This document shows, piece after piece, positions 36,775 through 63,097 of a DNA stretch of 64,000 nucleotides. The translations under genes were made by a program, and so were the position numbers. Source of the DNA: Apostichopus japonicus (lineage: Eukaryota; Echinodermata; Holothuroidea; Aspidochirotida; Stichopodidae). Each line of letters opens with the position of its first letter. Position 1 is the first letter of the stretch. The notes under the pieces were generated by a model that was not told where the DNA came from, ran no database searches, and worked only from the letters and a program-made list of their open reading frames with translations. Where the stretch lies: NCBI RefSeq assembly GCF_037975245.1, contig NC_092580.1, forward strand, positions 2,079,501 to 2,143,500, in the 5' to 3' direction.

Positions 36775-38460
36775 ACTGGTATCATCACAACTAAATCAAG
36801 GTGTCTATATATCAAGGTATAAGCAGTACAGATCTACTGATCTTCATTCAACTGTTACTGAGTATCATAACACTAAACCTGGGGTAACTGATATCAAGGT
36901 GTAATCAGTACATATCTATTGATCTTCAGTCAACTGTTACTGAGTATCATAACACTAAACCTGGGGTAACAGATATCAAGGTGTAATCAGTACAGATCTA
37001 CTGATCTGCAGTCAACTGTTACTGAGTATCATAACACTAAACCTGGGGTAACTGATATCAAGGTGTAATCAGTACATATCTATTGATCTTCAGTTAACTG
37101 TTACTGAGTATCATAACACTATACCTGGGGTAACTGATATCAAGGTGTAATCAGCACAGATCTATTGATCTTCAGTCAACTGTTACTGAGTATCATAACA
37201 CTAATCCTGGGGTAACTGATATCAAGGTGTAATCAGCACATATCTACTGATCTTTAGTCAAATGTTACTGAGTATCATAACACTAAACCTGGGGTAACAG
37301 ATATCAAGGTGTAATCAGTCCGGATCTACTGATCTTTAGTCAACTGTTACTGAGTATCATAACACTAAAACTGGGATAACTGATATCAATGTGTAATCAG
37401 TACAGATCTACTGATCTTTAGTCAAATGTTACTGAGTATCATAACACTAAACCTGGGGTAACTGATATCAAGGTGTAATCAGTACATATCTATTGATCTT
37501 CAGTCAACTGTTACTGAGTATCATAACACTAAACCTGGGGTAACAGATATCAAGGTGTAATCAGTACAGATCTACTGATCTTCAGTTAACTGTTACTGAG
37601 TATCATAACACTAAACCTGGGGTAACTGATATCAAGGTGTAATCAGTACAGATCTATTGATCTTCAGTCAACTGTTGCTGAGTATCATAACACTAAACCT
37701 GGGGTAACAGATATCAAGGTGTAATCAGTACAGATCTACTGATCTTCAGTGAACTGTTGCTGAGTATCATAACACTAAACCTGGGGTAACAGATATCAAG
37801 GTGTAATCAGTACAGATCTACTGATCTTCAGTTAACTGTTACTGAGTATCATAACACTAAACCTGGGGTAACAGATATCAAGGTGTAATCAGTACAGATC
37901 TACTGATCTTCAGTTAACTGTTGCTGAGTATCATAACACTAAACCTGGGGTAACAGATATCAAGGTGTAATCAGTACAGATCTACTGATCTTCAGTTAAC
38001 TGTTGCTGAGTATCATAACACTAATCCTGGGGTAACAGATATCAAGGTGTAATCAGTACAGATCTGTTGATCTTCAGTTAACTGTTACTGAGTATCATAA
38101 CACTAAACCTGGGGTAACTGATATCAAGGTATAATCAGTACAGATCTGTTGATCTTCAGTCAACTGTTACTGAGTATCATAACACTAAACCTGGGGTAAC
38201 AGATATCAAGGTGTAATCAGTACAGATCTACTGATCTTCAGTCAAATGTTACTGAGTATCATAACACTAAAACTGGGGTAACAGATATCAAGGTGTAATC
38301 AGTACAGATCTGTTGATCTTCAGTCAACTGTTACTGAGTATCATAACACTAATCTGGGGTCACAGATATCAAGGTGTAAACAGTACAGATCTGTTGATCA
38401 TTAGTCAACTGTTACTGAGTATCATAACACTAACACTGGCATAACTGATATCAAGGTTTC
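36775..38460. repeat. 82-bp minisatellite, about 20 copies
   Basis: The unit contains, in order, agatctactgatcttcagt, caactgttactgagtatcat, aacactaaacctggggtaac and agatatcaaggtgtaatcag. Copies are about 95% alike in the centre and decay at both edges. Variant sites (act/aca before gatatc, tactgatc/tattgatc/tgttgatc, gttact/gttgct) recur in neighbouring units, indicating local homogenisation. The array begins about 1.4 kb downstream of the IFT122 stop and shows no similarity to its exons. Confidence 0.95.
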
Positions 38461-38756
38461 CATTTGTCTAGATGGAATATATATAAAACCAAAGAAATAG
38501 GATACAACATGTCCTTGTATGAGATTGTCCCTGTCTAGTTTGAAGGTGTTTTCACATAACCAAGTAGAGGGAAAAGACTAAAACGTGACTTCCAGCTATG
38601 CATCTATTCTTGAACTAACATTCGGGTGATGATGAACATGGAAAACATGTGGATAGTTTAGAAGGTTCAGAGGTCACATTATCTGCTATCGGTAAATGAG
38701 TTAAGTGTGTACTAGCTATGGAATCACAGACCATGGTGTGTCTGTCAAACACTGTG

Positions 38757-39220
38757 ATATTGTTAACTAGACTGTGACATGTTAACTAGACTGTGACATT
38801 GTTAACTAGACTGTGACATTGTTAACTAGACTGTGACGTTCTTAACTAGACTGTGACATTGTAAACTAGACTGTGACATTGTTAACTAGACTGTGACATT
38901 GTTAACTAGACTGTGACATTGTTAACTAGACTGTGACATTGTTAACTAGACTGTGACGTTCTTAACTAGACTGTGACATTGTAAACTAGACTGTGACATT
39001 GTTAACTAGACTGTGACATTGTTAACTAGACTGTGACATTGTTAACTAGACTGTGACATTGTTAACTAGACTGTGACATTGTTAACTAGACTGTGACATT
39101 GTTAACTAGACTGTGACATTGTTAACTAGACTGTGACATTGTTAACTAGACTGTGACATTGTTAACTAGACTGTGACATTGTTAACTAGACTGTGACATT
39201 GTTTTAACTAGACTGTGACT
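38757..39220. repeat. 20-bp minisatellite with a 120-bp higher-order block
   Basis: The unit is ttaactagactgtgacattg, about 23 copies, mostly identical. Two variant units (gacgttc then ttgtaaac) recur together at about 38836 and again 120 bp later at about 38956, so a six-unit block has been duplicated. It is located 0.7-1.1 kb downstream of the IFT122 stop codon, next to the 82-bp array. Confidence 0.95.
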
Positions 39221-42800: not shown

Positions 42801-45800
42801 AGCAATATCAGTGACTATTTGTCTATGGAAGGACACAAGATCCAATAGGAAATCAGAAACCAATCATTAATTATAGATGTAACTACAGGAATGCAGTTTA
42901 CAATGACACACACTTGATACAGTCTGCTGTTCTGTAACACTTTACCTCGGCATCATGGAATGGCTTCGATCTTATCGTAATGCTGCCTAGATCAACAGTG
43001 TCTTGTAATCTCGGTGGTATTCTAAGGGATTGCAATTTCTCAAAGGCAAACCTTGCCAGTTTGTAAGCCTGTAAGATCCTGCTCTGTTTAGCAAGAGCAT
43101 AGAGAGTGTTACTGAGATAAGTTAAGGAAGATGAACTGTAATATGAAGACAAAATAGTAAACAAATAAATTTGAAAATTTAGAGGCACATTTATGAAAGA
43201 TTTGACAAATAACTTCTTGAAAATTATGTGTGACAATTGTTCAAGTAAAACTTGCCACTTTTAAGTTTATACTGTAATATTTTTGACTGTAATTAATGCA
43301 TACTGAACTTTGACCCATGTTGGCACCCTGCCGAGGGTATTACAAGAGCACAGGTTTCCATTATTTTGATAAAAGACCCTCAATTACTCTAAGAAAGTTA
43401 CCCCTAAAACAAAGCCTAAGCTTGCAACACTTTCTAAAGCAGATGCACCTTTCATAGGGAACCCACTTTGCATATAAGAATTGGGCTGAAGATGTGACAT
43501 GTTGGACATGTTATCTTTAATTAGAGTGGCTAATAATCAGCTAGTTCCAACTGTTTGACAGAAAGAAATACTTCCCATATTTTCAAACAAAACAGTACAT
43601 TTATTTCATGAAATTATATGTTTTTATGGTTACATACATTTATTAATGAAATACATACTATTGTTATTTGGTGTATAGAAGTACAATGCTTTTCACATTA
43701 ATGTATTCCGTCCGATCGATGAGGTGAATCATCTCACTGTATAATAATAATAATTATAATCATTCAAGAAGGAAATATCATGTTTCAAGTACTGCCGTGA
43801 ATAATAATTAATTATTTTAATTTCCATTTCTACGCAACGACACTTCCAACATTAACCGACCACACAATACATCAGTGGGGTGGGTGGGTATATATGTAAA
43901 AGGATACACTTTACTGACTCCATGAGGAACCTCTTTCAAGATGGCATGCCAGAGGTACTTGGCCATATTAAAGAGTGTCTCTGCCTGATGGGAGGTGAAG
44001 GGTTCATCAGTGTACCTTTGTATGGTATGGTAAACATAATAAACCTCAGCTTTAGACTGGAACTCCTGGAACTTCTGCAACATCTCACGACTATTCTCTT
44101 CGTTCTCTGTTGAAGAATGACAGAAGTTATAATATTAACTGCAGCTAATGTCAAATGCCAAACCTATTATGCCTTGTCGTTAATTTATGCAAAAAAGAAA
44201 CTTTGCTAGTTTCGCTAACATTTCATAATGTGATCACAAACAGTAGTGCCCATACCTATTTGTAGTATTGTAATGTAGCCAATGGCTGTAGCATGAACCT
44301 ATTTTCACAGTAGTACAACCTGGCACTGAGTGGTCCTATGTTAAGTGAATCCTAAGTAGACTTGCACAGGCTGTACAGAAGTAGGATGCAAAGTATAGTT
44401 CAACTTGCCACTGGCTGTAAAGGCAATCATTTTCTGAAGACTGCCTAGACTGCTTTGAGTAAATATTTATCCTTCCAGTATCTAGTTTCCTATAAAGTAC
44501 ATTGTGATAACTTCATAACCACAACGTAACAAGAGCTTGGGGAACTTTGGTTAAAATACTGAATGTTTATTTGAATAGAAAGTGTGGATGAGACAATCTT
44601 ATCCATGTTAAGATAATATGTGCCATAAGCTTTAACATTTACATGTTATTATTCAGTCCACATTCAACATTTAGGTAAATTTATATTAGCATTGTGACTA
44701 ACGAGTACAGCTAAATGAGACTTACGAAATGAAAGAGAACTTACTTCCAGCAATCTCCAGGCACTGCATAGACAGATTCCAAAAATAGTAACCAGCATCG
44801 TTAAAACGGCTCTCCATGACGGCATTGTGCGTCAGCTGTTCCAGTACTCTAACTGCCTCCCTCTGTTGTCCAGCCTTGTGGTAAGCTAGGAATAAGTCAG
44901 ATCAGTAAAGTTCATGTTCTATTCTATTCAATGCACAACAATGCTCTATTCTATTCAATGTAGAACAATGCTCTATTCTATTAAGTGTAGAACAATGCTC
45001 TTTCTATTCAATGTAGAACAATGCTCTATTCTATTCAATGTAGAACAATGCTCTATTCTATTAAGTGTAGAGCAATGCTCTTTCTATTCAATGTAGAACA
45101 ATGCTCTGTTCTATTCAATGTAGAACAATGCTCTATTCTATAAAGTGTAGAACAATGCTCTTTCTATTCAATGTAGAACAATGCTCTATTCTATTCAATG
45201 TAGAACAATGCTCTATTCTATTCAATGCAGAATAATGCTCTATTCTATTCAATGTAGAACAATTCTCTATTACATTAGCTTTCTTGTATGCAGGCCATGT
45301 TGCTCTATACTGAAACCGTTTGCTGAGATAAATGGTAACAGCCACATTCTACAGTGTTCCAGTATTAAGCCTAACAGGAGATGGAATAGTTATCTGGGAT
45401 AACCTTTGTCCTTGAGAAAGAATGTCAAATTAGAAGGATGCAAACTTTGGATCCTTCAAAGTCTTTATCCACACGATGGTTTACGGAAAAGACCACGACA
45501 CATTTACACCTTAATTCATTGCTAAAGGAAGGAACTACGCACCCCTTCTTAAAGTCAACCACTCAATCAATCCTGGGTAAACTGTGTGAAAGGGAAGTGC
45601 CTTAATTAACATATAACATACACTCTTGTGGAGCAGGATCAAGGGAAATTTAAATTGACAATATAAGTACTCTTAATTGCAAACATAAAGCAATTGGAAG
45701 AACGGCATAGCAACTTCACGCTTTGTCTATCAGCGCCATTCAAGGCTTTCTCATCTCTCAGCATTATCTGAGGCTTGCACATGGTTTTGTATAACCCGCT

Positions 45801-48800
45801 CTAATGATGTACGGCTTCAGTATGGTATATAATGTTAACTACATTGGAATGCATGTTCTCCAATGATGAATGACTGACCTCTCTCATCATGTTCTTCACT
45901 GAACTTACAGCCTTATATGTCTGTCTTTGTATGAATACACACACTGCACTCTTTAGTACTATACTCAATGGTAACTTTTCACCCAAAGAAAATGACTTAG
46001 TGCCTAGCATCAAGAATGTCCTTGTTGTAGAAACATGAATAACCATCTCTACACTGAGTTGTTCCTGTAAACTTTGAGATGAGAGGACCAACCTTTTTGA
46101 GCTTCTTCAAATCTGTCATTCTCAGCCAGCCATCGGGCATAAGGTACGTAAACATCATCCTTAAGGACAAAAGAAGAACAATGTATAGGCTTAAATAAAT
46201 CCCTAGAAATAATTCAAAATACTGGAATATTGCTCTTAATTAAAACTTCAGACAAACACATTATTAACCCAACATATCACTATGCTGTTAAAATTGCAAT
46301 GACATGTTACCAGAGAGAGGTAAACGTTGAAAAACAGACAGTTCCATACATCATGTACAAAACCAAACCAAGCAAACAAAAACACATAGAGACCAAGCAT
46401 TTACTGCCATTGATTTCCATCAAAGGGATATTATGCTGGTCAAAAGCTGTTTGTGTCATATAAACCCTATGAACTTTCTGCACTCGTAGTTATAAATAAC
46501 ATCCTAACAGCATGCTCTATCACAAATGTATGAATGTGTACAGTGTTAGAGGGTTTCATGTGTTTTGCAACAGAAGTGCCAGTGACATCACAGAAATTGA
46601 GTTGAAAATGTCTTTTGGGGTTGATTTGTGATTTTCAACTTGGATTAAACAGGGGATGAACCTGGGGTAAAAAAAATTCACGGAACTTTGCAAAAATTGC
46701 GGTACAGGCTCCAGTTTGAGTATGCTACAGTGTGTCAGGATAATAGTTTATGTCCCGAGGTAGAAAAGAAATCACAGATATTCCGCGAATTCGCGGGAAA
46801 AGCTCATGCCTGATTAAATGTGACAGAAATTTTGTCTTTCATGTAAGGTCCACATAAGCCACAGGACTATAACTTTAAGTTGTATTCTCATGTTTACTAC
46901 CTTGAATTCCGAATGCTTCTCTACTAAGGTGAAGGCTGCTTCCCAATTCCTGGACTCCACATGAAGGAGAATTAAGTTCCGGGTGTCTCCCATCTTGGTC
47001 AGAGTCTCTGCAGCGTAGGCAAACTGCTCCATCCTCTTAAAGTATTGTGCACATTTACCGAGAGGTTCTCTGTCAGCCTTGTCAAGCTTACGAGCAACGT
47101 CGATGAGCCTTGTGAGGAGAAATAATAAAGATAAAGAAATTCTCTGACATAATAAAAAATAAAATATATACAACGGAAAAGTGACTGTGAAATTATGAAA
47201 AAAAAATATAATACATATCAGCCATAAATTCGAAGAAGACATTTGAATGAAGTTTTAAAAGTAAGTAAGGCATTGCCAGTACTGTGTATGGAATGCACTG
47301 ATACCAATAATTATAACCAGGATATCCATTTGTTCAGAAGTAGGTATTGATTTGACTTTACCAAGTAAACAAAATATAGTATACGTAAATAAGAAAACAG
47401 AAACTGACGGTAAAGTTTCAATCAAATTTGAGCGAAGAAATTTAAATCGCTAGCAAAGCAATTCAAACCAGTGAACTATACTCTCCTTCCCCAAGGATTA
47501 TCAAAGGAAAGGTGGTTGAATAACTCAAATGGGTAGCAAACAAGAATTGCACCTCTGGGGCAATTGATTCTGGCCGTTAATTTGTTTGCTCTTTGAAAGT
47601 TTTTAAAATACATAGAAGACAAAAAACCCAAACAATCCTCACATATCTGCCCAGCCATTGTCACCGATGATCTCTACGGCTTTAAGGTGTTCTCCAGCGG
47701 ACAGGTACATCTCTGCGGCAGCTCTGGGTTCGTTGATATTTTTGGCCCAATCGGCCTGCTTTGTGATCAGTAGTTTCTTATCCTGCGGATCTCCGCTGCC
47801 GATGAAATCTTTGGCCTGGTCGAACATGCAGAGATCCGTGTACATGTTCATGGCCTTCTGTTCGTGCCCTGCCCTCTTGTACAGCTTAGCTGCTTCGCCA
47901 AACTTGCCCTGGTAGGCGAAGACATCTGCCAGGAATAACTGGTCGTCTAGCTCACCGCGGCGCTTCCTCTCCTGTAGAAGTAGTAACAAAATAAAATTTA
48001 AAAACAAAAAAGTCACCAGCAATTTTTCCACTTAAAATGTTTATTTTTGATTAAAATGATTATTTTTTAAAATGATTTATTTTTTCTTAAAATGATTATT
48101 TTTTAATATACTTTGGCAAGGATAAAAACCAAAATTGATAATGCTAGACTTAATCTTATTGGGCAAGTATCAAATTTGTATGAACAGTGCTGAGAGATTA
48201 GGGTTAACATTAAACATTAAGGAGAAACTTTGCCCATTTATCTTAAAAGATATCTGAAAGTAATGCCCTAATGTTTACCATTTAAAGTCAGTATGTTGCT
48301 TTTACTTGATAATTAACTTCATGTTGTCAAACAAATATGTGACTTGCAAACTATTTCACCACAAAAGTGAGGACATTTACAAAGGTCATGTTAGTTTCAA
48401 TTACAAATTTAAAAAATGAGACTATAGATGGAAACATGGAATGGATTATCTTTCTAAACTTTGGGATTCATTCATAAATGGGACAATGAAATTGACATTA
48501 TTACTTGTATTATCTGATGTGAGTTAATTCAGAGTATGCTTAAGTTTGGTTGCTATGTGTGGCCATATCCTAGGAACCAAAAGGATTCAGACATTAATTT
48601 TTGTGCCCATTTTCTTCCTTTGAGACATCTGGGAACACAGTATATTAATATCAGCCAGATATAAATAGTCGTCTGGAGGTGTCTGTTACTTTGGCATGGA
48701 TTGACCTGTGTACCAGAATATCTGTAACAGACACCTGACTGGGAATCAAACTAATGACCTCATGAATACCAATCCCATGATGCATCACACTAGCTATTCA

Positions 48801-51800
48801 GCTATCAATATTTCCCACTGCTTTGCCTCAAAATATCATAATTATAATCTTGGACAAAGTTTGAACATAACAACATGGAGAGCGCCATGACAGTCTTTCT
48901 CCTGCAATTTAAGACATCCTCTCCTTTGAATGTTTACATTGTGACATTATTTAAGTCTCTTCTTGTGCAGGTCCTTACTACACCTCCTTTCCATACTTGC
49001 AGGCCTACCTCAATGTTATGAATGAGTTCCAAGTAGCGTAGATCCCGGACCCTGATGAAAGCTTTCTTGGATGTGTCAAAATCAAGTCCCTGAAGGGCCT
49101 CGTGGGCCAGAGCATTCCAGTCCTTCTCAGTTACTCCCAAACATGCAACTCGATAAGCATCCCTGCAAGAAAAGTAAATTGCTGATCTTTTTAAGTTTTG
49201 TACCATACAGGCAGCCACATAGGATTCAGTTTCATTGACCTCACTGTAGTCCTGCTTCTTTGTATAAACCTACATCTGGTCCTTTCGTAAAGTGCAACCT
49301 CCTAACTTAATCGGTCGTGAACAATTTTTGAATTTGCCACACACCCCTCCCTCCTCCCCAAACTTTAAAATCCTTTGCATGCCACTGCCTTTTAGAGTTA
49401 ATTAAAAAAATGACAAATCTTGTGGTAGTAACAACTACTTTCATAAACTGTACAAAGTATGTGTTACCTTGTGGAAGTAAAACATAGTTGAACTGAAGGT
49501 ACGTGTTACCTTGTGGAGGTAAAACATACTTGAACTGAAGGTATGTGTTACCCTATGGAAGTAAAACATACTTGAACTGAAGGTACGTGTTACCTTGTGG
49601 AAATAACACATACTTGAACTGAAGGTACGTGTTACCTTGTGGAAGTAAAACATACTTGAACTGAAGGTACGTGTTACCTTGTGGAAGTAAAACATACTTG
49701 AACTGAAGGTACGTGTTACCATGTGGTAGTAACACATACTTGAACTGAAGGTACGTGTTACCTTGTGGAAGTAAAACATACTTGAACTGAAGGTACGTGT
49801 TACCATGTGGTAGTAACACATACTTGAACTGAAGGTACGTGTTACCTTGTGGAAGTAACACATACTTGACCTGAAGGTACGTGTTACCCTACTGAAGTAA
49901 CACACACTTGAACTGAAGCAACGTGTTACCTTGTGGAGGTAACACATACTTACTTGAACTGTTTCCGCTCCAAATACTGATACATGGGTGCTGACTGGGG
50001 TACCTCCACCGTGGTCATAGCGTACACATGAAGACAGAAGATCTTGGAGCCAGTGAAGCCCACCACAAAGCCCTGCATCTTCTGTTGGTGCACTGGAAAA
50101 TTGCTGGCCTTAATGTTCAACTGGTTGTTACCCGAGAAACACAGCATATCTTCACATTGGGTATTCCAGGCAACGCTGTTAGCATTCGGTTCCTACAAAG
50201 TAGCAAAAACCGGTGGACGGATAAAATATGAGGAGAGAAGGCTAAAGATGTGTTAGTTGAGATCTCAGAAATGTCATGACGCAAATTATTTGCAGAAGAG
50301 GGTGTAGTCCCAGCGGAAAAATCTATTCATATCTTCTGTTATATAATGACTACTTCAATGTGTTCAGATGTTATCAGATTATGCGTTGCATAGCAACAGT
50401 TCTTGTTAAGAACTGAATGGTTTAGATAGATTTTGGATCAATGGTTGATATTGCCTGTAGAGTCGGAGGATGAGTGATTTCTGTGGTATCTTATCTAGTC
50501 ACATATCTTACTAAACAAGTAAGTAGAAGTACATCCATCTCAAATGTGACCCAGTCAAGGAATAGTTTGAAATGGCCTTACTGAAGTGATTTCTTTCGGC
50601 ATATTTTCAGTCATTTTCCTGTTGATGTTTGGATGTTCAAGAGGATGAAATAAAACCACCAATGGTCTAAACATTGGCAGGATTAATAATAATAATAATA
50701 ATATTCCAATTTTATATAGCCCTTTATTCCAGCGATAGGTCTCAAAGTGCTTGACAGACGTTATGTTACCCCTGGTCAATGATAACTTGTCCCAGAGACA
50801 ATCCCTAACGTCAGCTACAGTTATATACTGCGCCCAATGACAAGTTACCTCACAGGTACCCATTTAAACCCTGGGTAGAGAGAGGCAATTGAGATAAAGC
50901 ATCTTGCCCAAGGACACAACGTAATGAACTAGGCAGGAGTCGAACCAGCAATCCTTGGATCACGAGTCTGACGCCCAATCGTCCACCACGCTCCACAGGA
51001 TTGAAGGTGATTTAAAAGCATTCAGAAATTCCTGGGTGAAACAGTGAGAATCTAAAGCAAGATTCCGCAGGGTCATGCCATGATAGCCCAAGCCACCAGC
51101 CAGCTACCAATTGGTGTGTCGGACATGTGTGTAAGTCGACGGAGTATTAAATGAATCGTGGTACGACACCAAGACAAACTTACCTGAAAGAGCAATTCTT
51201 TGGTGTCTACATCATAAACCAAACAGGTATTATGTTCATCAACCACGGCCAGGTGTTTCCTGGAAGAGTTCAGGTCCAAACATCTCACAGAAGTTTGTTG
51301 TTTCAGGATGAGGATGGGGAATGGATTGTCCACAAATATCTTCAGTATCTGGTAAAAGTCATTTTAGGTAAATTTACATAAATTAAATGCAAGAACTCTT
51401 GATTACATAGAAATTCCTTTGCCAACTGTAGTTAAATCAGTTCTCTGTACATGGTCAATGTAAAGTTCAATACAGTATATTTAAGTTTTGACTGAATGCT
51501 GTATAATTTATGTCCTAGGTTAGAGAGATCTAAACCTATTCTTGAGGTAATAAGAGGCAGAAGAAGATTATTCATAGTAAAAGAACGCATTCATAGCTTC
51601 ATCATAAATTTGTATCCTTTCGGACAGCAAACTTTGAATTCAAGCAACCTTAAAAGGAATGTCAACATTGTATGAGGGCGTACCACCAAACTCTATTAAA
51701 TTAAAATCTGAGTCCATTTACATGGACAGGGTTACATTTCATCACATTACTTTGATCATGGTCCCCAAGAGTTCCCTCAAAAACAGCCAAGTGAATGAAT

Positions 51801-54800
51801 ACCAGCTAAAATGCATTTCAACAATAGCAACAAAAGAAGACTGCATCACAACTTTAAAAAACTACCAAATAATTTCACAAAAATTGGTTAAGACAAAAAT
51901 CTTCACAAATGAATGGACTCATTATGCAAATTATTTACAAGGACCAGATGACATTAACACTGACCTACATAAAACAACACAGCACAAAACCCTTTCCCAG
52001 CAGTAATGATTAACCAAACATCTTCATATTTCTCTTTTAGTTTATTATTGCGAGTCAAGTTACCATTTAATACAAGTCACATTTTCTTGTATTGCCCCTT
52101 CATTTTTGTTGCCATTGTTTTTCTGCTGCATTGATGCTAACAAACAAAAGTGGAGATGAAATGCTTACCTGTCCGTTCTTGAGACCGACTAAAAGCCCTT
52201 CTCGTCCACTGGTTCCTCCGATTACTTTGATGTATCTGATCAAGGCCTCCATCACCCACTCACGTTCCTTGTTTCCAGATAAGCTGTAACATGTCAACCG
52301 TTTTTCCTGTGATCAAAAATATTTTAAAAAACTGGTGATAGGGGCTATGGATAATACAATCTTCACTTAGCCAGGAGGATGGACTGAATCAGTGCATGGT
52401 CTCAGAGATGATATACAACATGACATACTTCAATGGGAGATCTTGGATTTAAAATGTGCCGTTAATGACCACTAACATTCTCAGCTCAATAGAATTCTCA
52501 TAAAAGATTCCTGGGCCTGAGATACTCATTCTAGAAGGATATTCTTTAAGAGGTTTATTGTTTCTGAAGAAGGTCTTGCTATGATCAAAACATCATTTTG
52601 TACAATTACACACAGAGGCATTTTGTAGTAAACATTGCAGTTTTTAACACTCTGTTTTCCTATGTATTTGTATTCTGTGTTTGATCTCTGGTCACATGTC
52701 AAACATGGTTCATTGAACAGATTAATGTCAGATATATAACTAGGATTGTTTGTTTTCATTCCAGAGATCCCTAATTAGCTATGTACGAATGATTCCATCC
52801 GGTTCTAACTTATTAATTAGTCATGCTGACACCTTTGTTACCTCAAATACAAGTCCAAGTGAACCTTGAATCAAATATTCACACCAGAAATGAGTCTTTA
52901 CTGAGTAAAGTTCTGTAAATCAGCTGCATTCTACAAGGATTAAGGTATGAAATGGTCTTCAGAGTCAACATGAATTACCCACAATCCCTTAGTGCTGGGG
53001 TTCTACATTAATTGTCTACAAGGGTCAGAGAAAAACATTGGTTGGAGCACCAGGCAATAGAGAACCACAATTGAGCAACGTGTAGAGTAAGCTGGTAGTG
53101 TTCTCAAGCCTATGGCCTTAAGGGCCCATATACCTGATTGTGTTAGCGTGTGAGTATATTTTCGCTTCTCGGCCTTTTGGCTAAGATCATGTGTAGTATC
53201 TGTTCCCTTTCGAGGGAATGGTGATGCACACCTGACGACAATCGCACAGTCACAGTCCCGATGCAAGGGGACTGGGGTTGACAGCGGATCAGTTGTTTGG
53301 TAGTTTGGTTTTCGTGCCCGGGTTCTTTCCTGGGCGACTTTTCCTTAAAAAAAAGTATATTTTTTGCAGTATGTTTTTGCAGTAGGTTTTGTGGGTATAT
53401 TTTTTTGGCAGCCCAGATGTGGCCCACAGTCCACCTATTGAGCACCCCTCTCTTAGTTGGAACCATGACTAGGTGATAAGCTGATAGGGACAATGACTAG
53501 CATGCCTCTTTCGTTCTCCTTAAACCCCATTTTTTCAATTTGGATCCATCCTCTTACCTGACAGAGGACGATGTGTTGAGAGCAGACCACGAGAAGGTTG
53601 CATTCAAACTTCTGATTGATTTTTTCCTTGACTCTGTAGTGCATGTCAGATGCATCCTCTGAGTATAGTTCATAGATGATTATCTTATCGGAGAGTTGAA
53701 CCTATAGCCGCAAAACAAAAACAGAATTTAAGCGGGTTGCAAAGATTAAAACAGAGCATATCTAGTAAAACAAGGTTTAAAGTAAGTGATGGATGATTCC
53801 TCATGAAACGGAGCATTTAATCTCCCCAGAATGGTGCAGTAAGGTGGACACTAACATCAGTATTAAATTTTTAATTAACATTTGCCCTGATTCTTAAAGG
53901 CCAAGTAAGCTATATCTGGGTACATACCCACTGAGCAAATGGTTTAGGACTATGCCAATTGTCAATGTTTTTAATATAAGGAACAGATTTTTTGCATTTC
54001 TTGTGACATAAGTAAAGTAGATGACAAACAATGTAGTTGGTGATCAAACTCTATTTGCATGTTAAAATGACTCAGTGATAAATAGATATGAGATATGCAC
54101 TCCACAATCTCACAATTCCATAGGAAAGTCACACTTAATACATTCTGATTTATGAAATATCTATTAAAAATTTAAAAAAATACATTGATAGTATAATTTA
54201 TAAAACAACTTATACATACATAAATATACTGATACAAAAGCTTTCTCAAAAGAAAAATGTTTTACTTTTAATCAAGAAAAGTTCTATGTGCAGGAATGAG
54301 TAGTAAAAATACTACAAGGTTTAAACTTACTGCAAGTCTGTTCTTGTAGATGGCTATCTTTTTCACCAGGTCTCTGCATTTCAAACGGACTTTCTGTTCT
54401 GTGAGCAGATGCTGGACGATGACATCTGTCATGTTTTCCCTGTAGGCATATCTATCCTTGTAGAGCCCATGAACGGTACTGAAGATTAGCTGATAGTAAG
54501 CTATGGTACCGTCCTGGCAACCGACAGCCTATATGAAAGACAACAAACACACATACATATGACTGAAGATGAGCCTATACGACAACTAACACACATACAT
54601 ATGACTGAAGATGAACTGATAGTAAGCTATGGTACCGTCCTGGCAACCGACAGCCTATATAAAAGACAACAAACACACATACATATGACTGAAGATGAGC
54701 TGGTAGTAAGCTATGGTACCGTCCTGACAACCAACAGCCTATATGAAAGACAACAAACACACATACATATGACTGAAGATGAGCTGGTAGTAAGCTATGG

Positions 54801-57800
54801 TACCGTCCTGACAACCAACAGCCTATATGAAAGACAACAAACACACATACATATGACTGAAGATGAGCTGGTAGTAAGCTATGGTACCGTCCTGACAACC
54901 AACAGCCTATATGACAGACAACAAACACACATACATATGACTGAAGATGAGCTGATAGTAAGCTATGGTACCGTCCTGACAACCAACAGCCTATATGAAA
55001 GACAACAAACACACATACATATGACTGAAGATGAGCTGATAGTAAGCTATGGTACCGTCCTGACAACCAACAGCCTATACGAAAGACAACAAACACACAT
55101 ACATATGACTGAAGATGAGCTGATAGTAAGCTATGGTACCGTCCTGGCAACCAACAGCCTATATGAAAGACAACAAACACACATACATATGACTGAAGAT
55201 GAGCTGGTAGTAAGCTATGGTACCGTCCTGACAACCAACAGCCTATACGAAAGACAACAAACACATATACATATGACTGAAGATTAGCTGGTAGTAAGCT
55301 ATGGTACCGTCCTGGCAACCAACAGCCTATATGAAAGACAACAAACACACATACACATGACTGAAGATGAGCTGGTAGTAAGCTATGGTACCGTCCTGGC
55401 AACCGACAGCCTATATGAAAGACAACAAACACACATACATATGAGTGAAGATGAGCTGGTAGTAAGCTATGGTACCGTCCTGGCAACCGACAGCCTATAT
55501 GAAAGACAACAAACACACATACATATGAGTGAAGATTAGCTGGTAGTAAGCTATGGTACCGTCCTGGCAACCGACAGCCTATACGAAAGACAACAAACAC
55601 ACATACATATGAGTGAAGATTAGCTGGTAGTAAGCTATGGTACCGTCACCGACAGCCTATATGACAGACAACAAACACACATACATATGACTGAAGATGA
55701 GCTGATAGTAAGCTATGGTACCGTCCTGACAACCAACAGCCTATATGAAAGACAACAAACACACATACATATGACTGAAGATGAGCTGATAGTAAGCTAT
55801 GGTACCGTCCTGACAACCAACGGCCTATACGAAAGACAACAAACACACATACATATGACTGAAGATGAGCTGATAGTAAGCTATGGTACCGTCCTGGCAA
55901 CCAACAGCCTATATGAAAGACAACAAACACACATACATATGACTGAAGATGAGCTGGTAGTAAGCTATGGTACCGTCCTGGCAACCGACAGCCTATACGA
56001 AAGACAACAAACACACATACATATGACTGAAGATGAGCTGGTAGTAAGCTATGGTACCGTCCTGGCAACCGACAGCCTATACGAAAGACAACAAACACAC
56101 ATACATATGAGTGAAGATTAGCTGGTAGTAAGCTATGGTACCGACCTGACAACTGACAGCCTATATGAAAGACAACAAACACACATACATATGACTGAAG
56201 ATGAACTGGTAGTAAGCTATGGTACCGTCCTGACAACCGACAGCCTATATGAAAGACAACAAACACACATACATATGACTGAAGATGAACTGGTAGTAAG
56301 CTATGGTACCGTCCTGACAACCGACAGCCTATACGAAAGACAACAAACACACATACATATGACTGAAGATGAGCTGGTAGTAAGCTATGGTACCGTCCTG
56401 ACAACCAACAGCCTATATGAAAGACAACAAACACACATACATATGACTGAAGATGAGCTGGTAGTAAGCTATGGTACCGTCCTGACAACCAACAGCCTAT
56501 ATGAAAGACAACAAACACACATACACATGACTGAAGATGAGCTGGTAGTAAGCTATGGTACCGACCTGACAACTGACAGCCTATATGAAAGACAACAAAC
56601 ACACATACATATGACTGAAGATGAGCTGGTAGTAAGCTATGGTACCGACCTGACAACTGACAGCCTATATGAAAGACAACAAACACACATACATATGACT
56701 GAAGATGAGCTGGTAGTAAGCTATGGTACCGTCCTGACAACCAACAGCCTATACGAAAGACAACAAACACACAGACATATGACTGAAGATGAACTGATAG
56801 TAAGCTATGGTACCGTCCTGGCAACCAACAGCCTATACGAAAGACAACAAACACACATACATATGACTGAAGATGAGCTGGTAGTAAGCTATGGTACCGT
56901 CCTGACAACCAACAGCCTATACGAAAGACAACAAACACACATACATATGACTGAAGATGAGCTGGTAGTAAGCTATGGTACCGTCCTGACAACCAACAGC
57001 CTATATGAAAGACAACAAACACACATACATATGACTGAAGATGAACTGGTAGTAAGCTATGGTACCGTCCTGACAACCAACAGCCTATACGAAAGACAAC
57101 AAACACACATACATATGACTGAAGATGAACTGGTAGTAAGCTATGGTACCGTCCTGACAACCAACAGCCTATATGAAAGACAACAAACACACATACACAT
57201 GACTGAAGATGAGCTGGTAGTAAGCTATGGTACCGTCCTGACAACCAACAGCCTATATGAAAGACAACAAACACACATACACATGACTGAAGATGAGCTG
57301 GTAGTAAGCTATGGTACCGTCCTGGCAACCGACAACCTATATGACAGACAACAAACACACATACACATGACTGAAGATGAGCTGGTAGTAAGCTATGGTA
57401 TCGTCCTGACAACCAACAGCCTATACGAACACAACAAACACACATGTAGACACATGATAACTTCATGAAATAAAACCAAATAGCTCAAACATCTACTGAC
57501 GTAATATCAAACTGACCGATCTGACAAATGAATATTCCAACTGTGTATTTATTCTACTGTATCACAGATAATTTGATTGGTTTAACCGAGGTTCATTTCA
57601 AGCGTTTATACTGACCACAAAGTTTTGATCGGGCCTGACGGCACACGACCAAATCCATGACTTTTGTTCTGCGATGACACCTAGTTGCACCCCTTCCTTG
57701 GTGTGTAACACTGCCTGTTTGTTGGACCCACCAATCACCATGTATTCCCCTTTGGAGAAGAATCCCAGAGAGCAAGGGTCATAAGCTAGGTCACGATCTT

Positions 57801-60800
57801 TGCCAATCTGTAGGGAAATGAAGAGAATAAATAGTCTGGTTCAAGTCAATCTATTCGAAATGCCAATCGGTACCTCCAACATGCTTGAATTTAGTCCAAA
57901 AGAGACTTGATGCTGTGTTCCTATACAGACTCCCACTCTGTATGGTACAGTTTCAATGCAAAAACACTTGGCAAAACATTAATCAAATCCATAAACTAAC
58001 ACTTTTTTGCAATTTCTAGGAAAAACAATAAATCTGTACCACCTGGACAGAACTCAAGGGCATGCAGATGTCTTCTAGCTTGATAAAGATAATAGTAAGT
58101 CCTATAAGTTCCAAAAATAAATGCCAAATTTCAAGGAATGTCACAATGTACTGTTATCGAAGATAACTGTTAATGTTAATGTGACCCTGTCTTACGTGCA
58201 AATCCAAGTCATTAACACTGACAACGGTTACAGTCGACTACAGTCGGATAGCACAATCTCACATCATGGCCGGACTTAACACCTTCAAGCAAGATTGCTC
58301 CAAGATAATGTGGTAATGAATATAAATCACTGTTTGCCTCAAAATTTTACTATGTTTATACACATCACCATAGAGTTACTTCTTGCATTCTTTAAATGAC
58401 AGGTACTACAGTAGCTAAACAAGAAGAAACTATCTTTGTAAACTATCTTTGTAAATCAAAATCTCTACCCCCTTCCCTTAATCCTCTCTTTGTCCCTCCA
58501 CTGTTATCTCCTACCTCTCCTCTTTCCCTGTTGGTTTCTTTCTTTTTTCTCTCCATCCCTTGTCTTCTAATCCCCTTTCATCAATCTCTTTGTGTTCACC
58601 ATGCTCATTAACCTGTCTGTATTTTGTGCGTGTTTTTGTCCCTTCTGTTACTGTTACTTGTCATTTAGCCTTTGAAGAAGATCCTGCTAGGATCGGGGAT
58701 CAGGCCAACTTACTTTTACACATACATCAAATTGTATTAAAGGCACCCAGCTTCCACAAGGTTATTATGGATATTGCTATATTTACCTTTTGACCACTGA
58801 GTTGGTAAAATGATAGCTTCTGACCCCAGTCGACCACTGCCAGGACATCATGAGCTTCACCTCTACATAATACAAAAAAATGGAGGGTCAGTTTCTTGGA
58901 TTTATTCCTTTACAGCATTCCTTTGGTTACTGTGTGCAATAATACAATTAGTATATTAATTTTTTTCTTTTTCTTGGGGGGAGAAGATCATGCTTAGGTT
59001 GCTTGAGAAAGCAATAGGCAGTTTTCCATGCCTATTGTTGAAAGGGAAAATGGGGGGGGGGTGGTATCTGGTGGAGGGGGTTACAAAAGTAAAGTAAAGA
59101 GGAAAGTGGACTAGAATTGCTCAAATAAATTTACTTAGCAGGATTCCAGCTCATCTTCCAAATTGGGTTTACAGCTCCACCTGGTCGTTCAAACTTCAAC
59201 TTCTCCTCGCCATTCTAAGGATGAATAAAAATAGGTAGATATTAAAAAACCCATGAAGGTAAGAAGTTAAAGAACAACACCATTTGATAGGATCTACTAA
59301 CACACTGAAGTAAACTGAGTACCCGAGTGGAAGGACATGGACTTACATGGATTTGTCCATTCTACTAGCTTACCTTTGTTCGTATACTGATTTGTCCATT
59401 GAACTAGCTCACCTTTGTTCGTATACTGATTTGTCCATTCTACTAGCTTACCTTTGTTCGTATACTGATTTGTCCATTGAACTAGCTTACCTTTGTTCGT
59501 ATACTGATTTGTCCATTGAACTAGCTCACCTTTGTTCGTATACTGATTTGTCCATTGTACTAGCTCACCTTTGTTAGTATACTGATTTGTCCATTGAACT
59601 AGCTTACCTTTGTTCGTATACTGATTTGTCCATTGAACTAGCTTACCTTTGTTCGTATACTGATTTGTCCATTCTACTAGCTTACCTTTGTTCGTATGCT
59701 GATTTGTCCATTCTACTAGCTTACCTTTGTTCGTATGCTGATTTGTCCATTCTACTAGCTCACCTTTGTTCGTATACTGATTTGTCCATTGTACTAGCTT
59801 ACCTTTGTTCGTATGCTGATTTGTCCATTCTACTAGCTTACCTTTGTACGTATACTGATTTGTCCATTCTACTAGCTCACCTTTGTTCGTATACTGATTT
59901 GTCCATTCTACTAGCTCACCTTTGTTCGTATACTGATTTGTCCATTGTACTAGCTTACCTTTGTTCGTATGCTGATTTGTCCATTCTACTAGCTTACCTT
60001 TGTTCGTATGCTGATTTGTCCATTGAACTAGCTTACCTTTGTTCGTATACTGATTTGTCCATTGAACTAGCTTACCTTTGTTCGTATACTGATTTGTCCA
60101 TTGTGCTAGCTCACCTTTGTTAGTATACTGATTTGTCCATTGAACTAGCTTACCTTTGTTCGTATACTGATTTGTCCATTCTACTAGCTTACCTTTGTTA
60201 GTATACTGATTTGTCCATTGAACTAGCTTACCTTTGTTCGTATACTGATTTGTCCATTGTACTAGCTCACCTTTGTTCGTATACTGATTTGTCCATTGTA
60301 CTAGCTCACCTTTGTTCGTATACTGATTTGTCCATTCTACTAGCTTACCTTTGTTCGTATACTGATTTGTCCATTCTACTAGCTCACCTTTGTTCGTATA
60401 CTGATTTGTCCATTGAACTAGCTCACCTTTGTTCGTATACTGATTTGTCCATTGAACTAGCTCACCTTTGTTCGTATACTGATTTGTCCATTCTACTAGC
60501 TCACCTTTGTTCGTATACTGATTTGTCCATTCTACTAGCTTACCTTTGTTCGTATACTGATTTGTCCATTCTACTAGCTTACCTTTGTTCGTATACTGAT
60601 TTGTCCATTCTACTAGCTTACCTTTGTTCGTATACTGATTTGTCCATTCTACTAGCTTACCTTTGTTCGTATACTAATTTGTCCATTCTACTAGCTTACC
60701 TTTGTACATATACTAATTTGTCCATTCTACTAGCTCACCTTTGTTAGTATACTGATTTGTCCATTGTACTAGCTCACCTTTGTTCGTATACTGATTTGTC

Positions 60801-63097
60801 CATTCTACTAGCTTACCTTTGTTAGTATACTGATTTGTCCATTGTACTAGCTCACCTTTGTTCGTATACTGATTTGTCCATTGTACTAGCTCACCTTTGT
60901 TAGTATACTGATTTGTCCATTGTACTAGCTCACCTTTGTTCGTATGCTGATTTGTCCATTCTAGTAGCTTACCTTTGTACGTATACTGATTTGTCCATTG
61001 AACTAGCTTACCTTTGTTCGTATACTGATTTGTCCATTGAACTAGCTTACCTTTGTTCGTATACTGATTTTTCCATTGAACTAGCTCACCTTTGCTCGTA
61101 TACTGATTTTTCCATTCTACTAGCTCACCTTTGTTCGTATACTGATTTGTCCATTGTACTAGCTCACCTTTGTTCGTATACTGATTTGTCCATTGTACTA
61201 GCTCACCTTTGTTCGTATACTGATTTGTCCATTGTACTAGCTCACCTTTGTTCGTATACTGATTTGTCCATTGTACTAGCTTACCTTTGTTCGTATACTG
61301 ATTTGTAACCTTTGTACGTATACTGATTTGTTCATTGTACAAGCTTAATTTTGTACATATACTGATTTGTCCATTCTACTAGTTTACCTTTGTACATATA
61401 CTGATTTGTCTGTTCTACTAGCTTACCTTTGTACATATACTGATTTGTCCATTCTACTAGTTTACCTTTGTACATATACTGATTTGTCCATTCTACTAGC
61501 TTACCTTTGTACATATACTGATTTGTTCATTGTACAAGCTTACTTTTGTACATATACTGATTTGTCCATTCTACTAGCTTACCTTTGTACATATACTGAT
61601 TTGTTCATTGTACAAGCTTACTTTTGTACATATACTGATTTGTCTGTTCTACTAGCTTACCTTTGTACATATACTGATTTGTCCATTCTACTAGCTTACC
61701 TTTGTACATATACTGATTTGTTCATTGTACAAGCTTACTTTTGTACATACACTGATTTGTCCATTCTAGTAGCTTACCTTTGTACATATACTGATTTGTT
61801 AATTGTACAAGCTTACTTTTGTACATATACTGATTTGTCTGTTCTACTAGCTTACCTTTGTACATATACTGATTTGTCCATTCTACTAGCTTACCTTTGT
61901 ACATATACTGATTTGTTCATTGTACAAGCTTACTTTTGTACATACACTGATTTGTCCATTCTACTAGTTTACCTTTGTACATATACTGATTTGTCCATTG
62001 CACTAGCTTACCTTTATACATATGCTGATTTGTCCATTCTAGTAGCTTACCTTTGTACGTATGCTGATTTGTCCATTGTACATCCCAATAGCTAGATACT
62101 GCCCATCGTTAGTCCAGCTGCAACAAGTTATTCTACTGCTACATCTGTGTTTAGATACAGCCTTCTGTTCCATTGACCACAAACCTGGGAAGCGGATACA
62201 CAACAACCATTAATGTATTGCAAATACACAACAACCATTAATTGATAGCAGATACACAATAAACATTAATAGAAAGCAGATAAACAATAACCATTAATGG
62301 ATACCATATGTATGTATGTATTTTAGATCCTCCTGCAAGCAGGAACTCGCGAAGAAGCCATCATTGGCTTATCAAAGCCGCAAGCTGACCGAAGTCATTC
62401 TCTTAGATTCATATTAAATGTCCATGATTATGAATTGTCAACAACTCTGTAACTGGACGACATACATTAATCTTGGAGTGACTCGAACTTGGGACCTTAT
62501 GATTGAATGTGAAGTTGTGAAGTTTTCAATTGAAAAGAGGATACTACAAAAAAAAAATAGCAATGTGTTACCATCAAAGCAATGACTCAAAAGTTTTTTC
62601 TGCAGAATAGATTCAAAGGGATTAATTATTTAATTAATTAATTAATTACTTCTGAACACAGCTCACATGCCATACAAGAAACCCTTGAAATGATTTTGCT
62701 ACAGCTTTGGCAACCAGACAAAATGGTGTCTACCTTCAACAATCACATTGTGGTCAGTATATCTTTACAAGTTTACATAAACATTAATAACAAGAATTAT
62801 AGTCAAAGATCACATTGGATGAGGAAATTGGGGGTAGGGGAGGAGGGGGGGGGGATTTTTTCAGAGTCAGGGGCAATTTGAGAGCCCAGTGTGGGATGCA
62901 GTTCCATTTGACGATGACATCATATCTGGGCATCAGATGAAAGCTACTTTGAGATATTACTGTCCGTATTAAATGATGTATCAAAAAGCTGTATTATGAA
63001 CTAGATTTGTTATAACCTACCAAAGTCACTACACGCGCAGCTTGCCAACTGATGTGTTATCGGATTGAATGACAGGCACTGCAAGGAATCATTGTGT
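39886..63097 (-). CDS. IFT122: Intraflagellar transport protein 122 (IFT-A subunit), 5'-incomplete, 21 exons
   Basis: IFT122 is a core subunit of the IFT-A complex, which drives retrograde transport and membrane-protein entry in cilia. Exons 5' to 3': 63097-63021, 62184-62051, 59214-59135, 58862-58787, 57807-57616, 54528-54331, 53701-53558, 52306-52169, 51348-51184, 50192-49954, 49162-49009, 47971-47643, 47108-46901, 46159-46093, 44885-44745, 44106-43908, 43111-42946, 42429-42318, 41702-41488, 40659-40495, 39978-39886. Phases agree at every junction, giving 1096 residues plus TAA. N-terminal beta-propeller blocks include [35 protein letters not shown] and VGCQDGTI. The middle and C-terminal TPR-like helices include [20 protein letters not shown] and [17 protein letters not shown]. 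Zn-binding Cys pairs (CYRC/CTNC, CPSC/CPFC) close the protein. The first roughly 100 residues are beyond base 64000; no earlier exon was found up to 64000. Splice junctions at 62051, 54528 and 49954 are embedded in tandem arrays. Confidence 0.95.
40909..41361. repeat. Pair of direct repeats of about 62 bp in an IFT122 intron
   Basis: ctgtaggagattagaacaaa followed by cggctga and tcaagtctatga occurs at about 40909-40970 and again at about 41300-41361. Both are within the intron between exons 41702-41488 and 40659-40495. Confidence 0.75.
44913..45275. repeat. 27-bp minisatellite just upstream of an IFT122 splice acceptor
   Basis: The unit is approximately atgctctattctattcaatg plus tagaaca, about 13 copies, some one base shorter (ctcttt). 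The array ends about 28 bp upstream (in transcript sense) of the acceptor of exon 44885-44745, so it occupies the usual branch-point region. Unlike the other three IFT122 arrays, the unit does not contain the exon junction. Confidence 0.92.
48020..48115. repeat. AT-only low-complexity tandem (aaaatgattatttttt type)
   Basis: Three to four irregular copies of ttaaaatgattatttttt lie in the intron 5' (transcript sense) of exon 47971-47643, starting about 50 bp from its acceptor. Confidence 0.75.
49441..49953. repeat. 42-bp minisatellite carrying copies of an IFT122 exon end and splice donor
   Basis: In transcript sense the unit contains cttcagttcaagtatgtgtt (or gttttac), acttccacaagg and taacacgtac; about 12 copies. 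The real exon 50192-49954 ends cagttcaa, followed by the donor gtaagtatgtgttacc at 49953. The array starts immediately there, and each unit repeats cagttcaa plus a gtatgt donor-like hexamer. Two to three variants (accatgtggtagtaacac versus accttgtggaagtaaaac) alternate. Period 42 leaves frames open: in the exon frame units read [14 protein letters not shown], but the first unit has TAA directly at the true donor. Confidence 0.93.
50687..51000 (-). mobile_element. tRNA-derived SINE in an IFT122 intron
   Basis: Read on the minus strand, the head is at the high end, with box B ggttcgactcctgcc and the body module ccttgggcaagatgctttat. The tail is the att/aat trinucleotide run at 50687-50702. It shares its body module with the SINE at 4037-4352. 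It lies in the intron between exons 51348-51184 and 50192-49954, in the same sense as the gene. Confidence 0.8.
53161..53353 (+). mobile_element. U2-snRNA-derived SINE with target-site duplication
   Basis: The first 45 or so bases match the 5' end of U2 snRNA nearly perfectly (cgcttctcggccttttggct, then aagatc and gtgtagtatctgttc, including the branch-point-pairing gtagta). After that the U2 similarity stops: the Sm site and 3' stem-loops are missing. The rest is an unrelated body with a gcccggg/cctgggc hairpin and an A8 tail. The 8-bp agtatatt occurs at 53153-53160 and again at 53354-53361, a target-site duplication that marks retroposition. It lies antisense in the IFT122 intron between 53558 and 52306. 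This is a repeat, not a functional U2 gene. Confidence 0.85.
54481..57460. repeat. 84-bp minisatellite carrying copies of an IFT122 splice acceptor and exon start
   Basis: About 35 tandem copies. In transcript sense each unit reads tgtgtgtttgttgtctttca, tatag, then gctgttggttgtcaggacgg and taccatagcttactaccagc tcatcttcagt, then catatgta. The last copy is the genuine 5' end of exon 54528-54331: its first 51 bases (encoding [17 protein letters not shown]) match the unit, and after ttcagt exon and unit diverge. Every unit keeps a pyrimidine-rich tract and the AG acceptor. Copies differ mainly at g/a and c/t positions; two units near 54560 and 55648 are shortened. Because 84 is divisible by three and the exon begins in phase 0, every acceptor's TAG is an in-frame stop for an exon extended upstream. 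Long ORFs on both strands here are by-products. Confidence 0.97.
59340..62083. repeat. 39-bp minisatellite carrying copies of an IFT122 exon end and splice donor
   Basis: About 70 tandem copies. In transcript sense the unit is aatggacaaatcagtatacg then aacaaag and gtgagctagtac. The first copy is the true end of exon 62184-62051, which encodes [10 protein letters not shown] and is followed by the donor gtaagc at 62050. Nearly all units keep aaag followed by gtaagc or gtgagc, a good donor consensus. There are two subfamilies: units near the exon (about 61310-62083) have gtacatatac/acttttgtac, while distal units (59340-61310) have gttcgtatac. In the exon frame the first unit reads GTA AGC TAC TAG, so read-through stops within four codons. 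The array fills the 2.8-kb intron to within about 125 bp of the next acceptor at 59214. Confidence 0.97.
62307..62507 (-). mobile_element. 5'-truncated copy of SINE family B
   Basis: The reverse complement matches the element at 10727-10985 from caatcataaggtccc through box B (aagttcgagtcactcc) to gcttcttcgcgagtt and gatctaaaatacatac. Box A is missing, as expected for 5'-truncated retroposition. It lies in the IFT122 intron between exons 63097-63021 and 62184-62051. Confidence 0.8.

Follow-up and report, generated by a model that had tools for sequence, protein, structure and literature searches.

The conserved cilium gene IFT122 of a sea cucumber holds three tandem arrays that lie across exon/intron junctions, and these are probably minisatellites of the type known from amphioxus as 'mirages', i.e., duplications that can fall anywhere in introns, whose copies carry one splice site each and would be tolerated through exon definition, and whose lengths are not selected for reading frame. 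An earlier note on this DNA had listed arrays with periods of 27, 42, 84, and 39 bp in the gene, all of which were recovered on the minus strand. Its statement that three of them contain a junction holds clearly for the 84- and 39-bp arrays and only marginally for the 42-bp array (8 exon bases).

The window analyzed was a stretch of 64,000 nucleotides (G000:C20:2079501-2143500) in an assembly of 671,581,487 bases and 35 contigs. Based on the match to human IFT122, most of the gene lies on the minus strand at about 39.9-63.1 kb of the window. Its exons were located as 21 segments by tblastn using a human IFT122 sequence as query, with which no match was found for the residues before 78. Twenty introns were fitted using homology and splice-site scores, not transcripts, with generic score matrices; two of the fits (P>Q and Q>R) are uncertain, each lying six residues from the expected gap. 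Tandem Repeats Finder (TRF) identified six arrays in the gene with a period of at least 20 and a score of at least 100, with periods of 27, 36 (or 19), 42, 84, 39, and 28 bp, so that the earlier count of four had missed the arrays at 62191-62303 and 48031-48106.

The host was characterized using the mitochondrial contig (C35, 16,099 bases), on which the AAA codons of COX1 read as Asn under genetic code 9 and as Lys under code 5, while code 2 introduces stops; the sites with AAA are what we take to be conserved Asn positions. COX1 is followed by a nad4L-like and then a cox2-like frame (named by eye), and code 9 together with the nad4L/cox2 order is presumably the echinoderm pattern. Contig C29 also carries a nearly complete COX1 that is broken up among several frames, together with another COX1 fragment (G000:C29:14745-16086 and 30842-31219), which may represent mitochondrial sequence copied into other parts of the genome or a leftover of the assembly.

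The 39-bp array (59350-62081, minus strand, about 70 copies) reaches 31 bases into the exon at 62051-62184 (minus strand; tblastn and splice-site fit) and copies its 3' end, where the donor AAAG/GTAAGC follows the exon end at 62051. The unit combines 26 exon-end bases with 13 intron-start bases, and the copies are 94 to 96% identical to their consensus. The authentic donor is followed by 70 candidate decoy donors, of which 59 equal or exceed it in score; the 70th of these, located 27 bp further along, could be a coincidental GT. From a 25-bp step at copy 18 onward the frame is no longer kept, and 17 of the 70 decoy donors are in frame.

The 84-bp array copies the 5' end of the exon at 54331-54528 (minus strand), the acceptor of which is TTTCATATAG/GCT. 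This acceptor was set by hand at 54528 because the residues AVGCQ precede the AG chosen by the automatic fit, which lies 15 bp inside the exon. The array occupies 54478-57445 (minus strand), comprising the TRF call (54581-57445) and one further copy to 54478; 33 copies were found, including the authentic one, and 51 bases of the exon are covered. Each unit consists of 33 intron-end bases and 51 exon-start bases. The AG is intact in all 32 extra copies, whose mean acceptor score is 8.1 (vs. 8.0 for the authentic acceptor). Within the exon-derived bases of the copies, third codon positions vary more than the other two (0.064 vs. 0.017 and 0.013; P = 0.034), as if the intronic copies had once been coding or were exchanging sequence with the real exon; the 39-bp copies show no clear excess of this kind (P = 0.2).

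The 42-bp array (49457-49962, minus strand; TRF end at 49951, 2 bp short of the exon) qualifies as a junction array marginally. Its units have in common the last 8 bases (cagttcaa) of the exon at 49954-50192 (minus strand; tblastn and splice-site fit), and 4 bases of the authentic donor are absent from them. Eleven copies lie past the authentic site, with a GT after the exon-like 8 bases in 10 of them, and a second decoy, AAG/GTAAC, occurs eight times. Genome matches of the 84-, 39-, and 42-bp units (36, 30, and 5, respectively) were all located inside their own arrays in a search that skips very common words, and each array therefore grew in place from its own exon edge.

The other three arrays of the gene do not span a junction and are intronic minisatellites near acceptors. 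The 27-bp array (44914-45271, minus strand) has mixed unit lengths, with a TRF score of 621 at period 80 vs. 590 at period 27, and lies 28 bp upstream of the acceptor of the exon at 44745-44885, just where it had been placed before. The AT-rich array of 36 or 19 bp (48031-48106, minus strand) lies about 60 bp upstream of the acceptor of the exon at 47643-47971, and the array of four 28-bp copies (62191-62303, minus strand) 6 bp upstream of the acceptor of the exon at 62051-62184. No exon sequence was seen in the 27- and 28-bp units. The IFT122 stop codon was placed by eye near 39,886, and two further arrays, of 20 copies of 82 bp (36809-38457) and 23 copies of 20 bp (38751-39219), lie downstream of it at distances of up to about 3 kb and possibly belong to the 3' UTR. 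Antisense within an IFT122 intron there is also a U2 snRNA-like copy (53161-53236, plus strand; Rfam RF00004, 50.9 bits), which with 76 bases vs. the 192-position model is probably a truncated pseudogene.

As controls we used introns of dynein, kinesin, and myosin genes of the same genome, the exons of which were taken as best-scored candidates from searches with the Myosin_head, DHC_N2, and Kinesin profiles. The sample comprised 62 stretches (52 dynein and kinesin stretches of 239,852 bases, and 10 myosin stretches); among the 70 myosin and 126 kinesin matches listed, only those within these 62 stretches were used, and the sample is biased toward conserved genes whose exons lie close together. 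Introns were fitted for 214 of the 237 pairs of neighboring exons, with 23 pairs left without a fit, and in one stretch (L039) skipping a questionable additional exon brought back an intron fitted earlier, for a total of 215 control introns. TRF listed 55 arrays in the control stretches (period of at least 15, score of at least 100), and the 37 with a period of at least 20 in fitted introns were counted. Seventeen of the uncounted arrays lay outside fitted introns and one had a period of 16; three of these 17 uncounted arrays (72 bp in L007, 92 bp in L043, and 53 bp in L058) extend into an exon match and resemble junction arrays. The largest number of arrays in any control stretch, seven with periods of 49 to 124 within 8.7 kb, was observed in a dynein gene (L007, 1-8701).

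The 37 arrays are located in 29 of the 215 control introns and cover 10.5% of the intron bases. Nine of them, in nine different introns, span a junction by at least 8 exon bases, which supports splice-junction minisatellites as a genuine class of repeats in this genome, as had been supposed. Their periods are 33, 42, 52, 53, 66, 68, 168, 214, and 297, and seven lie at donors and two at acceptors (donor bias P = 0.18). For three of the nine introns the fit departs from the expected gap by 2 to 4 residues. Each of the 12 junction arrays (IFT122 and controls) copies a fragment of its exon that is 8 to 51 bases long. The corresponding frequency in IFT122 is three of 20 fitted introns.

Placement was compared with a random model in which each array was collapsed to one unit that was free to fall anywhere in the intron or across its edge. 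Within the power of the control sample, the number of junction arrays does not clearly depart in either direction from the prediction of this model (9/37 vs. 6.6 expected, all units; P = 0.19). The result changes little when the required overlap is set anywhere from 1 to 12 bases (P = 0.16 to 0.27) or when L007 is removed (P = 0.17), and adding a 113-bp array of L039 that was seen only on the other strand gives 10/38 vs. 6.9 expected (P = 0.12).

Splice junctions, mainly donors, could instead be hotspots of tandem duplication, e.g., through co-transcriptional nicks or R-loops, with arrays born there more often than inside introns. We consider this rather unlikely. It is favored by IFT122, where three junction arrays compare with 0.57 expected under random placement (P = 0.012) and all six arrays lie within 60 bp of a junction vs. 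1.7 expected (P = 0.0005), both values being post hoc for a gene picked for its pattern. It is also favored by control units shorter than 100 bp, six of 27 of which fall on a junction (2.7 expected; P = 0.045, uncorrected) and 10 of 27 on or within 35 bp of one (5.7 expected; P = 0.042). Restricting the short units to TRF scores of at least 200 gives 6/19 vs. 2.2 (P = 0.016), and to at least 400 gives 3/12 vs. 1.3 (P = 0.12). For all units, 15 of 37 arrays are on or within 35 bp of a junction (10.5 expected; P = 0.065), and the seven donors among nine control junction arrays point in the same direction. However, the pooled count does not clearly exceed chance, and the excess on junctions is found in kinesin genes (6/16 vs. 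2.7; P = 0.03) but not in dynein (2/12 vs. 3.0) and myosin genes (1/9 vs. 1.0). The small P values, moreover, are uncorrected and come from several looks at one small set, and the short-unit excess is a hint. The junction-targeted repeat mechanism proposed in the earlier note is thus not supported by the control sample, with the short-unit excess leaving room for it. That short-unit arrays are preferentially born at splice junctions, above all at donors, we regard as unlikely; if they were, a process coupled to transcription or splicing would seed minisatellites, and mirages would be a shared deuterostome feature and not an amphioxus oddity.

The arrays might also be young introns that originated from tandem duplication of exon sequence (Rogers-type intron gain), and junction arrays do tend to fill introns that are otherwise short. 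Collapsed to one unit, the IFT122 junction introns (49163-49953, 54529-57615, and 59215-62050) have lengths of 174, 254, and 336 and are three of the four shortest among 20 (P = 0.0035); among the controls, four of nine junction introns (in L007, L017, L039, and L050) are shorter than 340 bp when collapsed, vs. 40 of all 215 (P = 0.064). Introns gained in this way should have a unit that matches the exons on both sides, whereas in 11 of the 12 cases here the unit matched the opposite exon no better than shuffled sequence, the exception being the 52-bp unit of L007 (P of about 0.02 among 12 tests). We therefore consider intron gain very unlikely.

Even less probable is an artefact of assembly or annotation. 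The junctions were placed by homology and splice-site scores without transcripts, and the three control junction introns that fit 2 to 4 residues off their gap would agree with an artefact. The copies, however, differ among themselves, as the 39-bp copies do from their consensus, similar arrays occur in many genes, and the available parts of one report describe an Apostichopus japonicus assembly built from HiFi reads (PMC10344927), if this is the same assembly.

According to the remaining alternative, selection retains only arrays whose period is divisible by three, in which splicing to a decoy would leave the frame intact. The four periods first listed (27, 39, 42, and 84) are all multiples of three, and after inclusion of the two missed arrays this still applies to five of the six IFT122 periods as listed (P = 0.018), or four of five without the 36-bp array (P = 0.045). 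The rule that all periods in the gene are divisible by three is nevertheless broken by the 28-bp array, and the mixed units of the 27-bp array, which scores best at 80, and the 25-bp step that puts most of the 39-bp array out of frame also speak against it. Multiples of three make up five of nine periods of control junction arrays (P = 0.14) and 14 of 37 periods of all control arrays (P = 0.34); junction arrays do not differ significantly from the other control arrays (5/9 vs. 9/28; Fisher P = 0.25), and their periods include 52, 53, 68, and 214 bp. Stop-free extension of the exon to a decoy site was found in IFT122 for none of the 70 sites of the 39-bp array, none of the 32 of the 84-bp array, and none of the 11 of the 42-bp array. 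An in-frame stop likewise precedes the first decoy in seven of the nine control junction arrays; the 66-bp array of L017 and the 52-bp array of L007 reach it without a stop, the former in frame and the latter out of frame. There is no sign that array lengths are selected for frame, and given the stops in the decoy extensions and the control periods off three, frame-neutral selection, which the earlier note had suggested, was rejected as the least probable of the explanations.

For the mirage-type reading that we prefer, short tandem duplications would arise throughout introns and expand through slippage or unequal exchange. A unit that includes an exon edge yields an array with one splice site per copy, as observed here. 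Decoy copies may be tolerated because each has only one splice site and an exon fragment; it would hence not be recognized as an exon, and the site pair of the intact exon would win. Use of the authentic sites and exon definition are what we infer from this arrangement. Wrong splice choices would mostly meet stops, and their products might be removed by nonsense-mediated decay. The mirage-type reading is supported by growth in place, the strong decoy sites, the fragmentary nature of the copied exon parts, the near-random placement in the controls, and the stops in decoy extensions, while the excesses of junction arrays in IFT122, among short units, and in kinesin genes, together with the open extensions of L017 and L007, count against it.

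Arrays of this type are hereby extended beyond cephalochordates to an echinoderm, and a first estimate of their frequency is provided (nine of 215 sampled introns, and three of 20 in IFT122), which makes them common enough to be studied on a large scale. Introns that offer the spliceosome about 70 strong donors, or 33 acceptors, of nearly identical sequence are natural experiments on its choice of sites.

Several known systems resemble the sea cucumber arrays in part. In the introns from tandem arrays of Zhuo (2007) and the internal gene duplications of Gao and Lynch (2009) the repeat reportedly supplies both sites of a new intron. These share with our arrays tandem copies within genes that carry splice signals; they differ in that 11 of our 12 units are without a match to the opposite exon. 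The mostly intronic minisatellite CeRep25B of Caenorhabditis elegans, which has been linked to splicing, forms a single family of 24-bp repeats with several loci on chromosomes III and II (PMC4039745), whereas each sea cucumber array is specific to its own exon edge. A 2009 study of segmentally duplicated human genes described variable minisatellites located at exon-intron boundaries, with units of about 30 bp on average and 27 intron modifications (PMC2812944). As far as the available sections of that study go, recent paralogues were compared, and new introns can arise via cryptic splice sites along with alternative transcripts; the sea cucumber arrays, in contrast, are found in single conserved genes and have no known decoy use. 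Earthworm metallothionein was considered as a further case of junction repeats and set aside, the accessible part of the source mentioning only an intronic minisatellite (PMC12783039). A term search in the accessible parts of two sea cucumber genome papers (PMC5638244; preprint PMC13228809) retrieved no mention of junction repeats, which does not show that echinoderm reports are absent from print, since subscription papers were mostly outside the search.

The closest counterpart is found in amphioxus, in which 'mirages' were described as minisatellite-like tandem duplications of exon/intron borders in the Adh3, globin, troponin C, and PGBD5 genes (PMC3087553; PMC3902484), the 2013 paper adding PGBD5 and citing troponin C (PMC3902484). 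In the accessible parts of these papers, mirages affect 5' and 3' splice sites, have units of 10 to about 160 bp with the AG/GT in many copies, and are reported not to disturb regular splicing (PMC3087553; PMC3902484). The statement in the earlier note that no such class had been described was therefore mistaken, given these reports and that on the human boundary minisatellites. Likeness to mirages refers to structural features, here read from one assembled haplotype. Common to both are units that lie across the border (clearly for 84 and 39 bp, marginally for 42 bp, and in nine control arrays), duplication of both borders (donors by the 39- and 42-bp arrays and acceptor by the 84-bp array; seven donors and two acceptors in the controls), and retention of splice signals in the copies (59/70 donors no weaker in score than the authentic one, AG in 32/32, GT in 10/11). 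The cephalochordate host shared by the mirage reports is no structural feature, and its replacement here amounts to an extension of range. The sea cucumber arrays thus differ from amphioxus mirages in their echinoderm host, in copy numbers of up to about 70, and in having an estimated frequency (9/215 introns).
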